A DNA stretch of 13,686 bases from Candidatus Altimarinota bacterium (GTDB taxonomy: Bacteria; Patescibacteriota; Gracilibacteria; BD1-5; UBA2023). The position numbers and the translations under genes were made by a program. The stretch lies in contig CALREC010000002.1 in assembly GCA_943355085.1 (NCBI GenBank), forward strand, positions 1 through 13,686, given 5' to 3'. The notes under the pieces are model-generated. The model searched no databases, had not been told where the DNA came from, and was given only the letters and a program-made list of their open reading frames with translations. This document shows, piece by piece, positions 8,371 to 13,686 of the stretch (its first letter is position 1; the number at the start of each line of letters is the position of its first letter).

Positions 8371-11300
8371 ATGAAAATATCTACATTTGAAATCTCTGGA
8401 ATGCACTGTACAAGCTGTGCACTGCTGATAGAAAAGTCCCTCAAAAAAATCCCCTGAGTCCATGAGGTATATGTAAACTTCGCGTCTGAAAAAGCCCGAG
8501 TGACTTTTGATCCCATTGTTACCAATGAGCGTATTCTTGAACAAAATATAACAAACTCGGGGTACTCAGCTTCCCTATTCATAGAATCTTCTCTGAACTG
8601 TGGCAAACATTCTCAGCGGAAAAATGAAGTCAAAAAATGGCACACACGTGTGGTCTCATCTCTCATTCTTTCATTGCCGATGGCATTTTTCATGATATTT
8701 GATTTTGTACGAATTCCCTCATACGAAAGATTCGTCATGCCCTATATGGCTATAATCTCTTTTTTACTCACAACACCGGTATTACTCGTCATCGGACGGG
8801 AGTATTTTTCGGGGGCCTGGTCAGCACTCAAGATGCGAACCGCAAATATGTACTCACTCATCACCATTGGAACCCTCACAGCATACCTTTATAGTATTTA
8901 TTCATATACTGTGTACTTCATACAGACCGGATCGCTCATCGGAGTAAATGGCATGAAAGTTCCTGGGATATATTTTGAAGTAGCTGCCTTTCTCATCATG
9001 TTCATATCTCTTGGAAAGTACCTAGAAGCCCGGGCAAAAGGAAAGACCTCAGAAGCGATCGAACGACTTATAGATATGACACCAAAAATGGCCCATATCC
9101 GACGGCATGACACTGTCATAGAAATCTCAACCCAGGAAGTACAAAAAAATGATATCGTGATAATATACCCTGGTGATCAAATTCCTGTCGATGGAATTAT
9201 CTGCACAGGATATTCGAGCATAAATGAATCCATGCTTACAGGAGAAAGTATGCCAGTCGAAAAAGTCGTCGGATCAAAAGTATTTGCTGGAACCATGAAT
9301 GGAGTATGAAGCTTCGAATTCCGGGTCACGGGTATAGGCACTGAGACGGCTCTTGCACGCATCATCACACTCATAGAAGATGCTCAGGGATCTAAGGCTC
9401 GGATTCAAGGGTTTGCCGATTCGGTCGCTGCGATATTTGTACCAGTGGTTATCGTGATAGCGCTTGTCACATTTGTTATCTGGTACACCGTGCTCGACTC
9501 GACATTTGCAACGGCGCTTTTATATTTTGCAGCTGTTATTGTTATAGCCTGCCCCTGTGCTCTCTGACTTGCGACCCCAACTGCCATAATGGTCGGAACA
9601 GGAAAGTGAGCCGAATACGGTATACTCATCAAATGAGGAGAACCACTCGAGATGGCCTGCCAGATCGATACAATAGTACTGGATAAAACGGGGACTATTA
9701 CCGAAGGGAAACCAAAAGTAACCAATATAATTTCTCTTGCGGATACGAAAGAATCAGAGATTCTCTCTATCGCGGCAGCACTCGAACTAAAATCCGAGCA
9801 TCCTCTTGCTGCAGCGATTGTCTGAAAAGCACTCGAGATGAAAATACAAACCCCTTCAGTAGAAGGATTTGAAGCGATTCCAGGGAGATGAATTCGTGGG
9901 AAGATTTATGGAACAGTCTATCTGCTCGGCACAAGACTTCTGCTTGAGGAAAATAATATCACTCTCGAGATGCAATCCAAGATGGAACATCTCGAAACAG
10001 AAGGAAAAACTGTTATGTTATTGGCAAACGAGCAAGAACTACTTGGCTTCATAGCTGTTGCAGATACCATTAAACCCACATCTCTAGAGGCTATAGCTCG
10101 CATGAAAAAACTCGGACTCATGGTCTATATGGTAACAGGAGACAATGCACGAACCGCGTATGCCATTGCACAAAAAGTCGGTATTGAACATATACTGTCA
10201 GACGTACTTCCAGAAAACAAAGCACTCGAAGTCAAAAAACTTCAACAAGCAGGGAAAAAAGTTGCGATGGTGGGAGATGGGATCAATGATTCCCCCGCTC
10301 TCGCACAAGCTGACCTTGGTATAGCCATGTGAAGCGGTGCTGATGTGGCACTGGAATCAGGGGGTATAATAATTATGCGAAATGATCTACGAGATATTCT
10401 CACATCTATAGAGCTCTCTCATCAAACAGTCGGAAAGATTCGTCAGAATATGTTCTTTGCCTTTTTTTATAATATCCTATGAATTCCTGTAGCAGCAGGA
10501 GTATTCTCGACACTCTGATTCATCTTAAAACCAGAACTTGCTGGACTTGCGATGGCACTTTCATCCGTATCGGTCGTTATGAATTCACTCCTTCTTGGCA
10601 CTTTTCGACCTGGATATAAAAATATATTTTCAAGGAAGATAGCACCTATTCTTATGACCATATTTTTCATCGGGATCTTCTGGCAATTTGCCCAATTTGG
10701 AAATATTGCCGAAGCAGGTCGTTCATATGTCACCAATAATCCACGCATCCTTTCGGAGATACAATCTTTTATGACCAATACTCCTGTAAAAATAGGATTT
10801 GACGGACTTGGACTCCCAAAGGTATTTTTTGGAACAGACAATATGCCTTCTGGACTTGAGTTGCGATATGGATATACAGATCTTACACAACACAACATGA
10901 TCGTCGGTTGGTCAGAAGCTCAGATGATGATACAAGAAGGACTTATACAGTGAGCGGGTGATGAACTGCATGACTTCTTCGGAGTAGAAAAAGTGCGTAT
11001 TGTTTGAATATTAAAACCTACTGGGACATTTCTGGATGATGCACATATTCTCTCTCTGGACAACTATTCTCGAATCATGTTCAAAGAAGATTTACTTATA
11101 ATCAAAACACCACTCGGTGAGATGAAATACTTTTATCTCTTTGATGATACGAATATCCCCGTAGTCCTTAAAAGCACTCTCCATCCAACAAAAAAGAGCT
11201 ACAAGGTGAATGACAAGGAATATATGAGTACCTATATCGGATATGACGAATCAAAAATGATGCAAAAAGAAAAATTATTTTCTCAGACATATGACACCAT

Positions 11301-11797: not shown

Positions 11798-11824
11798 GGA
11801 TCTTATCCGATGGGCATAAGATCC
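11798..11824. terminator. Strong stem-loop downstream of pheS (probable terminator)
   Basis: GGATCTTAT-n9-ATAAGATCC is a perfect 9-bp stem that can extend by two GC pairs inside the loop. It lies about 130 nt past the pheS stop and is followed on the minus strand by an imperfect T run (TTTGT). It probably ends or protects the pheS transcript. The weak T tract leaves open an RNA processing or small RNA role. The rest of the 253-bp gap (11703-11955) is AT-rich and, apart from the promoter at 11745-11773, shows nothing recognisable. Confidence 0.5.
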
Positions 11825-11955
11825 AGATAGCGACCATTTTTTCATCATGATTATGAGACAATAAACATGCAAGGGAGTTTGTGATACGTATAGATTTTTT
11901 TAAATTTGATACCGAGCAATACAACGCATGAGATTTTCAGGTATAAAAATTTTTT

Positions 11956-13209
11956 TTATCTCAGTATATATCCTAGTTCATTTTCTAATTTTGATCGAAT
12001 AGCAAAATATATAACGTTGATTTCATCATTGGTAAGAGTTCGCTCGAGTGAACGAAACGTTATACGTATGGTAATGGATTTCTTCTCTATGCCAAATCGA
12101 GCATCATCCTCAAACATTCCGGTGATTTTTACCTCTTCGATGAGATCGCCTGAAACATCACGAATCGCACTAGTGATAGCAAAAAAATGCGACTCCGTGT
12201 CCCGAGTGAGCTCGAGTTCTCAGGATTTTTCCATCTCTTTGAAATCTTGTATAAACGATCGCTTGGGCGCTATGAAAGAAATATCTTTGAACACTGGGGG
12301 AAAGTTACTCACTTCTTTATAAGGCTTAAAATCACCCCACTGAGCAGTAATTCGTGGATCCTGGCTCCAAAATATACGAATATCTGGCACTTTTTTGAGT
12401 GGCATCGCGAGTCGCTCGATCCCAAATCCAAATGCCCAGCCATTGTACTTCTCGGGATCGATTCCAAGTTTTTCCAGTACACTTGGATGAACAATTCCCG
12501 CCCCCAGTACTTCAATCCATCGACCTTCATACTCGACTTCCACCTCGAGGCTATCAAGTGTATAAGGGAAATTATCGCTGTGGAATCGGTATTGGACTCA
12601 GGCCCCAAAGAGTGCTGTGATCGTGGCAGAAAGTACATTTTTGAGAGTATTTTGATCGATGATCTCACGATCTTTAGCCACTATCCGGAGTCCATCGATC
12701 TGATGGAAGCATTCATGGTGAGTTTTATCGAGCTCATCGACACGATAGACTTTCCCTGATGAGAGAACCTTGATTTCGCCTTCATGATGGAGTTTCTCAA
12801 TTTCTTTATCTGCCACCAGGTGGTAGTACCACATAACCGATGTATGAGGCCGGAGGAGGATACTTTCATTTTTAATGTTCGATTTTTCGATAAAATAGCT
12901 ATCACTCGGACGTCTCGCTACATGATCCTCTGGGAAATTAAACAGGTCAAATGTTTCCCATTCAGACACGATTTCTGGTACTTGTACATGTGAAAACCCC
13001 GAGAAAAATGGTGAAGTGGTGAGAGATTCCACGATCATCTGAATCGGATGTCCTTTTCGCTCTATCAGATTCTCCATAGAGAGCACTCGAAGGATACGAG
13101 CATAATATGCTCGATTTTCCTCCGTTACCTGAGAATCTTGCAATTTTTTCTGGATTTTTTCTATCCATTTTCTGTCTGCATCTTGTATACCTAAAGGAAT
13201 AGTGTTCAT
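11956..13209 (-). CDS. pheS: Single-chain phenylalanyl-tRNA synthetase (PheS catalytic core fused to FDX-ACB)
   Basis: 417 residues from ATG 13209 to TAA 11956, with TGA-encoded Gly204 and Gly330. It charges tRNA-Phe with phenylalanine. The class II core includes LLRPHTSVMWYYHL (118-131), motif 2 ECFHQIDGLRIVAKDRE (166-182), the Phe-site region FPYTLDSLEVEVEYEGRW, LGAGIVHPSV (235-244) and motif 3 GWAFGFGIERLAM (257-269). It does not end there, as a bacterial PheS (about 330-350 residues) would: VPDIRIFW...NFPPVFKDISFIAP leads into a complete FDX-ACB domain (about 303-417; DLIEEVKITGMF, KKSITIRITFRSLERTLTNDEI, ELGYILR). This domain normally sits on the PheT C-terminus. The core + FDX-ACB order, without the long N-terminal coiled coil of bacterial PheS, is that of monomeric mitochondrial PheRS. 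It is preceded by a leader-peptide attenuator. Confidence 0.92.
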
Positions 13210-13221
13210 AATAAAAAAAGG

Positions 13222-13256
13222 TAAAAAAATAAAAAAACCTCCGAGTGATCGAAGGA
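13222..13256 (-). terminator. Attenuator terminator hairpin (segments 3:4) of pheS
   Basis: On the minus strand, CCTTCGA (13255-13249) pairs with TCGGAGG (13244-13238) around a TCAC loop, one G-U pair included, and is followed directly by a T tract (TTTTTTTATTTTTTT). It lies between the leader peptide and the pheS ATG, so it must be bypassed for the gene to be expressed. Confidence 0.85.
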
Positions 13257-13312
13257 TTTGTTTGGCAATTCGTAAGTATTACACCAAAAACAGTCCTTCG
13301 GAGATTCGAAAG
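13250..13312 (-). promoter_or_regulatory. Phe attenuator: alternative hairpins 1:2 and 2:3
   Basis: Segment 1, CTTTCG (13312-13307), inside the Phe codon run, pairs with segment 2, CGAAGG (13300-13295). Segment 2, CGAAGGA (13300-13294), can instead pair with TCCTTCG (13256-13250), the 5' arm of the terminator. That antiterminator extends through TTTGG (13288-13284) with CCAAA (13265-13261). The two states exclude each other. A ribosome stalled on the Phe codons would cover segment 1, freeing segment 2 to form the antiterminator. A ribosome that reaches the leader stop (13281-13279) would block the antiterminator and let the terminator form. Confidence 0.8.
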
Positions 13313-13350
13313 AAGAAACTAAAAGAAAATTGTTTTTGTATGTGGTTCAT
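13279..13350 (-). CDS. Phe-rich leader peptide of pheS
   Basis: A 23-codon ORF on the minus strand, ATG 13350 to TAA 13279: MNHIQKQFSFSFFFRISEGLFLV. Six of 23 residues are Phe, five within codons 8-14 with three in a row (12-14). This is the pattern of amino-acid-operon leader peptides and closely resembles in style the short Phe-rich leader of the E. coli pheST operon. It contains no TGA codon. The Phe run lies on segment 1 of the downstream hairpin set, which is what the attenuation mechanism requires. It starts about 26 nt after the predicted transcription start. Confidence 0.85.
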   Translation of the reverse strand: MNHIQKQFSFSFFFRISEGLFLV

Positions 13351-13382
13351 AAGAGAGAATAATAAATACGTCTCGTGAGGGG

Positions 13383-13410
13383 ATAATATGGGAAATGGAA
13401 TGGAAGTCAA
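13383..13410 (-). promoter_or_regulatory. Promoter of the pheS leader transcript
   Basis: On the minus strand, TTGACT (13410-13405) and TATTAT (13388-13383) are spaced by 16 bp, a good sigma-70-type pair. The predicted start is near 13376, giving a leader of about 165 nt before the pheS ATG. Between this promoter and the stop of the next upstream gene (13411-13537) I see nothing else recognisable. Confidence 0.65.
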
Positions 13411-13537
13411 AAGTTTATTGCAGTTGGTCTCATTTTTGTCGAGGGAATCAGTGGGTAGTCTTTTGAAATATAGAGATCTACTCAGAGGTATTTCTCTCTC
13501 CCAATTTCAACACCACTTCCTTAAGCCACTTTTTTCG

Positions 13538-13686
13538 CTATAATATCTTCTCTATATTCCATGCCTGCACATGCTCAATTCCATAATCATCAACAGGAAG
13601 GGTGATGTCATCAAGACTTACTACATATTTTGGGAAACTATCTTTTATGAATCGGAGATTTCCATACTCCCTCTGTATCACTTCTG
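13538..13686 (-). CDS. C-terminal end of a second DUF4143-type ATPase (partial)
   Basis: 48 residues enter from the right edge and end at TAG 13538. VIQREYGNLRFIKDSFPKYV, followed by VSLDD...YGIEHVQAWNIEKIL, matches the usual C-terminal tail of AAA_14/DUF4143 proteins (N/QREyxxLxxIkDnyPKYVlslD...GIxhxnixdfL). The catalytic domain lies outside the window, so intactness cannot be judged. There is no TGA in this fragment. This tail differs from that of the copy at 5317-6582, so they are not recent duplicates. Confidence 0.7.
   Translation of the reverse strand, partial: EVIQREYGNLRFIKDSFPKYVVSLDDITLPVDDYGIEHVQAWNIEKIL

Follow-up and report, generated by a model that had tools for sequence, protein, structure and literature searches.

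The window analysed here, a stretch of 13,686 nucleotides, carries on its minus strand, in this order, a promoter, a leader ORF, an inner 1:2 hairpin, a region 3, a terminator, a T tract and a PheRS-like gene (Table 1). Phe occupies codons 8, 10, 12, 13, 14 and 21 of the leader, i.e. six of 23 codons. The inner 1:2 hairpin as a whole spans codons 13 to 19, and the core of region 2 is able to pair alternatively with TCCTTCG (13256-13250), which forms the 2:3 antiterminator. This helix is extended by TGTTTTTGG, the segment next to the region 2 core, which pairs with CCAAACA. The 1:2, 2:3 and 3:4 helices are mutually exclusive. The original prediction had named a promoter, a 23-codon Phe leader, a 1:2 helix, a 2:3 helix with an extended arm, a 3:4 helix and a T tract, and all of them were located on the minus strand. 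Folding of the RNA, which it had put forward as a check, gives a fold energy that is not remarkable (z -1.51; 13 of 200 shuffles at least as stable), so that the case for an attenuator must be carried by conservation. Scans of positions 11800-13686 detected six promoter sites against 5.0 expected and four terminator sites against 1.0 expected. Elsewhere in the window, a short ORF with a weak hairpin was flagged by script at 8451-8643 (minus strand), within a plus-strand gene, and is probably due to chance.

Table 1. Elements of the predicted attenuator and the gene behind it, in window coordinates.
Feature	Position	Strand	Remark
Sigma-70-type promoter, TTGACT-16-TATTAT	13383..13410	-	consensus and conservation only
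-35 element, TTGACT	13410-13405	-	16-nt spacer to -10
-10 element, TATTAT	13388-13383	-	
Leader ORF MNHIQKQFSFSFFFRISEGLFLV (ATG to TAA), 23 codons	13279..13350	-	related peptides in relatives
Likely outer clamp, 5' strand (leader codons 3-7), partner 13292-13282	13331..13344	-	swap tests
Phe codon run F8-F14 (region 1, control codons)	13309..13329	-	
Inner 1:2 hairpin, 5' strand TCTTTCG, on codons 13-15	13307..13313	-	partner CGAAGGA
Region 2 core, CGAAGGA	13294..13300	-	covarying 2:3 helix
Region 2 tail TGTTTTTGGTG, common to outer clamp and extended 2:3 helix	13282..13292	-	
Region 3 (GCCAAACAAA and TCCTTCGA), antiterminator 3' strand and terminator 5' strand	13249..13266	-	
3:4 intrinsic terminator stem-loop CCTTCGATCACTCGGAGG, 7 bp, loop TCAC	13238..13255	-	
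Terminator T tract	13213..13237	-	
Single-chain PheRS-like gene, 417 aa	11956..13209	-	PF01409 and FDX-ACB; code 25; ATG at 13209

The 417-aa protein contains the domains PF01409 (47-290) and PF03147 (FDX-ACB, 301-417) and no further family. It fits the layout of monomeric PheRS, with the PheS catalytic core and FDX-ACB in one chain and without the PheT editing domains. The reading frame requires TGA as Gly twice, which fits code 25 and bears out the recoded genetic code of the original prediction. The closest solved structure is the human mitochondrial PheRS (7.6e-41). Monomeric PheRS is described as the mitochondrial form in the passages of PMC3275996 that treat it, and FARS2, as presented there, has the same single chain, PheS-like core and C-terminal anticodon-binding domain and likewise lacks an editing domain. 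The window protein differs from FARS2 in being bacterial, patchily distributed (17 of 353 genomes), found beside a canonical PheRS and below the curated cut-off of TIGR00469 pheS_mito (190 of 258.35 bits). A database search with the protein recovered 1600 proteins at E <=1e-60, the top one being 98% identical (among the best 120 of the 1600). A monomeric PheRS downstream of the leader had been predicted, and this part stands. It is not the organism's only PheRS, because a full-length PheT is encoded on contig C29 (L123) of the window's own genome (G000); of the 11 genomes in the order that have a full single-chain gene, 9 also show a separate canonical PheS match (partial in G002). The single-chain form is a second, accessory PheRS. 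No separate canonical PheS match was found in the assemblies G000 (78% complete) and G019 (84%).

The best NCBIfam match of the protein is NF051887 "PheS-related mystery ligase SrmL" (223.1 bits, below the cut-off of 300 bits), and the papers listed for SrmL in the open-access literature are unrelated uses of the letters. This match suggests an alternative in which the attenuation is real and the protein, a ligase derived from PheS, acts on another substrate and is regulated as part of aromatic amino-acid metabolism. The single-chain genes of the Gracilibacteria type display the motifs HQIDG or HQVDG and FPYT (FPFT in L053 and L054), unlike the canonical PheS of G023 with YQVEG and FPFV. This difference agrees with another substrate, as do the PheT of a canonical PheRS in the same genome and the position of the single-chain gene, which adjoins the DAHP synthase gene in G019 and lies on the same contig and strand as DAHP synthase in G038. 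The complete PheRS core with its FDX-ACB anticodon-binding domain and the similarity to the human mitochondrial structure argue against such a ligase, as do the control codons of the window, which are Phe codons as expected for an enzyme making Phe-tRNA; we consider it unlikely. The favoured reading is a Phe-specific second synthetase that would be induced when Phe-tRNA is short, a predicted function that leaves room for another substrate. In the alignment, L042, L046 and L052 have Arg at near-universally conserved Trp positions (e.g. VMRYYYL, YNGRAFGF and NQRGNF), as expected if CGA and CGG are read as Trp there; CGA/CGG is reassigned to Trp in Absconditabacteria.

The single-chain genes are scattered in the class, with 18 genes in 17 of 353 genomes (E <=1e-60). 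Sixteen of them were inspected for leaders, those of G033 (contig edge) and G109 (partial) being left out. A leader and a terminator lie directly upstream of the gene in five cases out of 16: the window (G000), G023, G017, G038 and G059. A sixth case is G019, where two tandem leader-terminator units are followed by a DAHP synthase gene and, 48 nt on, by the single-chain gene. The second of these tandem leaders (L071, G019:C57:5291-5613, minus strand) starts about 20 nt past the T run of the first. At the remaining 10 of the 16 genes, the leader is absent from the 290-420 nt or so inspected upstream. A scan of genome contigs (16 loci) added single-chain genes from two other candidate phyla (L053 and L054), with no leader on inspection upstream, and a cut one (L055). 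The leader peptides MQTIQKQFFFSFFFRKFEGLFLV (G023) and MLTIIQKQYFFYFFFQTFEGLFCGV (G019) are related to that of the window; the relationship is plain for G000, G023 and the first of the two G019 units, whose peptides have IQKQ followed by an aromatic run and then by EGLF. On a tree of 19 single-chain proteins, the leader label needs four changes (shuffled mean 5.3; 85 of 500 shuffles as low). The leader is thus scattered or at most weakly clustered, and the idea that it marks one PheRS clade was rejected. At 26 canonical loci with flanks of at most 1.5 kb, a script scan picked up no combination of Phe leader and terminator ahead of pheS, with a sensitivity that is not full, the G059 leader having been missed by the script and found by eye. 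One weak leader candidate was flagged in the canonical pheS locus L016, on the strand opposite to pheS.

Seven leaders from six genomes (G019 twice) were aligned, and their consensus fold retained the 2:3 helix only. This helix has seven pairs, with 95.9% of cells paired and changes on both sides in five of the seven; its covariation score was matched by none of 500 shuffles and every slid version scored lower. A covariance model was built from the seven leaders and run on 77 genomes of the order (E <=0.01, fast filters, 35 candidates scored per genome). It recovered 32 sites in 25 genomes, seven of them the input leaders. All 32 were inspected and possess an in-frame leader with a control-codon run, a 2:3 antiterminator and a 3:4 terminator, the terminator or the coordinates having been set by hand for three. 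The control runs are aromatic (Phe/Tyr/Trp) at 29 sites and made of Leu at three (G018, G042:C32 and G036:C3). These three Leu leaders, L120 (G018:C1:159730-159891, plus strand; LHLLLLLRFL), L107 (G042:C32:31577-31740, minus strand; TLLLILGTS) and L113 (G036:C3:11503-11668, minus strand; TLLLILRTS), share the scaffold with antiterminator and terminator. Among 212 genomes drawn from the class, matches at E <=0.001 were obtained in nine, all of the window's order, in a search that scored 13 candidates per genome and may lose weak sites outside the order. An in-frame UGA, Gly under code 25, precedes the TAA stop in three leaders (G017, G019a and G022); the leader of the window has none. The comparison of related genomes that had been proposed as a check therefore finds that relatives keep the Phe codons and compensate changes in the 2:3 helix, and ribosome-mediated Phe attenuation, as originally predicted, is the best reading.

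Judging from the genes behind these sites, the predicted attenuator of the window belongs to a family found in front of aromatic biosynthesis genes as well, and is not a feature of PheRS only. Leaders with Phe-rich runs are found before DAHP synthase in G021, G022, G070 and G019, and the G017 leader precedes a 113-aa ORF, chorismate mutase and DAHP synthase in that order. A Phe-rich leader, a small ORF and prephenate dehydratase follow each other in G068 and G069, and the Tyr-run leader MVNFATKYYYYYLS, given up to its stop codon, lies ahead of prephenate dehydrogenase in G019. Aminotransferase genes follow Tyr/Phe runs in G023 and in the window's own genome (G000:C107), whereas a leader with F, W and Y precedes a small ORF, shikimate kinase and dehydroquinase in G071. 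Leader, small ORFs and a pyridine-nucleotide-disulphide oxidoreductase are arranged in this order in G040 (Pfam-checked) and in G036, G041, G042, G045 and G047 (by sequence likeness). At L116, L122, L110, L088, L091 and L086, all in one family of the order, Trp/Phe/Tyr leaders were noticed ahead of small ORFs and a gene resembling thioredoxin reductase. The G048 leader precedes a LysE-type exporter (PF01810); this seven-Phe leader (L117, G048:C5:43725-43881, minus strand) has an unusual target for an attenuator, and the DAHP synthase gene just upstream of the exporter, in the same orientation, is preceded by a separate aromatic leader. Further sites are present in G003, G014, G028, G029 and G061. 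Small first genes (128-148 aa) occur between leader and enzyme or alone (L108:799-1245, L115, L106:384-785, L114:1158-1544, L118 and L119), with no Pfam match in those scanned (L115 left out).

The family was also approached by gene. DAHP synthase was detected in 24 of the 77 genomes of the order (27 rows), G000 not among them. Of 25 loci tried, 24 were readable by script, and an aromatic leader with a terminator-like hairpin was found within 700 nt upstream at 13 of these, four already among the 32 sites and nine new; one of the 13 (G056) is doubtful since the reported hairpin sits on the leader itself. At the other 11 readable loci, no aromatic leader was found in the 700 nt upstream. In a second order, around G082, three of 49 genomes matched DAHP synthase, two above the cut-off, and no aromatic leader with terminator was found in the 560 nt around the start of those two genes.

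The region is T-rich and its single-sequence fold unremarkable, as would be the case for an intrinsic terminator with a U-rich spacer that constitutively ends an upstream transcript, the Phe codons being a by-product of T-rich DNA. The frame of the aromatic codons argues otherwise: between the start codon and region 2, the leaders contain 193 of them in the leader frame against 77 and 98 in the two other frames, and the leader frame is the richest in 28 of the 29 aromatic leaders (G028 ties). Among relatives, moreover, Tyr and Trp codons substitute for Phe codons. A short ORF with at least five aromatic residues out of eight in position is found at 9 of 252 other terminators of the loci, which lends the constitutive terminator some support, but 24 of the 34 terminators at the sites pass the same test and two of the nine passing controls overlap known sites. 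Chance T-rich ORFs were rejected by the frame test and this control, the nine passing controls among 252 notwithstanding. Most relatives have a promoter-like element immediately ahead of the leader: TTGAC occurs upstream of 22 of 31 leaders, where base shuffles predict 1.13, mostly at 16-nt spacing (one of the 32 leaders was omitted, its upstream sequence being too short). Together with the covarying 2:3 helix, these observations make a constitutive terminator very improbable.

The pairings were evaluated by swapping partners between leaders. In all 32 leaders, the mean energy of the native 2:3, 3:4, inner 1:2 and clamp pairings each beats 5000 of 5000 permutations. With the nine leaders below 72% identity, the native value was reached by 0 (2:3), 0 (3:4), 27 (inner 1:2) and 86 (clamp) of 10000 swaps, the tests of 2:3 and 3:4 being biased by windows chosen on the native sequence and those of inner 1:2 and clamp using windows fixed relative to region 2. 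The native partner is better than that of the nearest relative in 9/9 leaders for 2:3, 9/9 for 3:4, 3/9 for inner 1:2 and 4/9 for the clamp. Compensatory changes were counted by covariation for 2:3; support for 3:4 comes from the swap test only. The support for the clamp and the inner 1:2 hairpin is moderate, and a clamp between the first codons of the leader and the segment after region 2 is likely rather than proven, in view of the 86 swaps that reach the native value and the nearest-neighbour result of 4/9.

The window very probably contains, as far as sequence comparison can tell, a ribosome-mediated leader-peptide transcription attenuator that would sense charged tRNA-Phe and control the second, single-chain PheRS. 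Transcription would start near 13376, about 25 nt ahead of the leader ATG. Under a shortage of Phe-tRNA, the ribosome would stall on F8 to F13 and cover the 5' strand of both the inner hairpin and the outer clamp; region 2, left free, would pair with region 3, and RNA polymerase would read into the gene. With ample Phe-tRNA, the ribosome would proceed across region 2 to the TAA just past it, region 3 would pair with region 4 and transcription would stop at the T tract. If the leader is not translated, the 1:2 hairpin and the clamp would favour termination. The spacing of the elements is fixed in the family: in 32/32 leaders, 23-34 nt separate the first control codon from region 2 downstream, and the stop codon falls at -5 to +1 relative to the start of region 2 in seven leaders and at +10 to +32 in 25, so that a terminating ribosome should cover region 2 in either place.

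This geometry was examined by masking a ribosome footprint in an equilibrium RNA fold. For the window RNA, a ribosome with its A site on codons 1-13 yields the antiterminator and one from codon 14 to the stop yields the terminator, which is also favoured in the RNA without ribosome. With the ribosome at the stop codon, the terminator wins in 32/32 leaders. With stalls on the first three control codons, 2:3 prevails in 20/32, not including G038, which is a direct PheRS case, and the ribosome-free RNA favours the terminator in 23/32, not including G023 or G059. Because the model ignores co-transcriptional kinetics and does not single out the Phe codons of the window from codons 1-7, on which a ribosome also favours 2:3, it supports the geometry and does not prove the switch.

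In the phe leaders of enterobacteria (pheA and pheST), genes for Phe biosynthesis or PheRS are preceded by a promoter, a short leader peptide rich in Phe, alternative helices and a terminator. The window has the same promoter, short Phe-rich peptide, alternative helices and terminator, and is a new case of this known kind of ribosome-mediated attenuator. It differs in phylum and code, in the single-chain PheRS downstream and in the probable clamp; unlike in enterobacteria, the ORF of these leaders mostly enters or crosses region 2, the stop lying at +10 to +32 in 25/32. The best Rfam match of the window is RF01859 Phe_leader (29.4 bits, E 0.0031, across the whole model). It stays below the cut-off of 55 bits and shows many non-standard pairs in the long stem of the model, so that we regard the window leader as a ribosome-mediated attenuator and not as a member of RF01859. 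The same family matches 9 of 20 other leaders (E <=0.34), all on the leader strand, with 34.7 bits at best and none at the cut-off. At the gathering score, 20 canonical pheS loci gave no Rfam match.

T-boxes are common at the PheRS genes of Gram-positive bacteria, where they sense tRNA charging to control aminoacyl-tRNA synthetases; charging would be sensed here as well, through translation of the leader. That the window holds a T-box or another direct tRNA- or ligand-sensing RNA with a coincidental ORF is scarcely credible in spite of these common targets, because no Rfam family, T-box included, reaches the gathering score in the window, 20 related attenuator loci gave two tRNAs and nothing else, none of the seven window matches at E <=10 is a T-box (the best being Phe_leader), and the relatives have in common the helices and the in-frame control-codon run. 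A T-box or riboswitch was consequently rejected, as the original prediction had it for the T-box. Outside Proteobacteria, candidate classical leader-peptide attenuators are also placed before synthetase genes in Streptomyces, at trpS and leuS, for Trp and Leu and not for Phe, in the passages of PMC1262725 that concern them; as far as its statements on phenylalanine operons go, no conserved RNA structure lies upstream of them in the Actinobacteria studied. We found no report of leader attenuation in Gracilibacteria, Patescibacteria or candidate phyla in the open-access literature, a result that leaves absence in print unproven.

Given a leader with a conditional stop at PheRS and related leaders before aromatic genes, these relatives among the Gracilibacteria probably sense amino-acid shortage as E. 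coli does. A wider picture is plausible, if tentative. In this UGA-recoded order, the homologous attenuators would form a system that regulates the aromatic amino acids and perhaps also Leu, in which exchanges between Phe, Tyr, Trp and Leu codons re-target one scaffold whose antiterminator strand is clamped by the first codons of the leader, and through which a spare PheRS of mitochondrial type without editing domain would be switched on whenever Phe-tRNA becomes limiting. Accounts of candidate-phylum bacteria with reduced genomes usually dwell on missing functions; for one such lineage, the family provides a concrete, testable amino-acid regulon under a changed code, and many of its leader peptides match the regulated gene. 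With it, Phe attenuation is extended to a single-chain PheRS, and some genomes of the order carry two types of PheRS, one apparently under starvation control. The covariance model can be used to search for further sites. On the reverse strand of L090 (about 2330-2470), MNRLSSTFFFFFFSFLVRR is followed by a terminator and is possibly another Phe leader missed by the RNA model.
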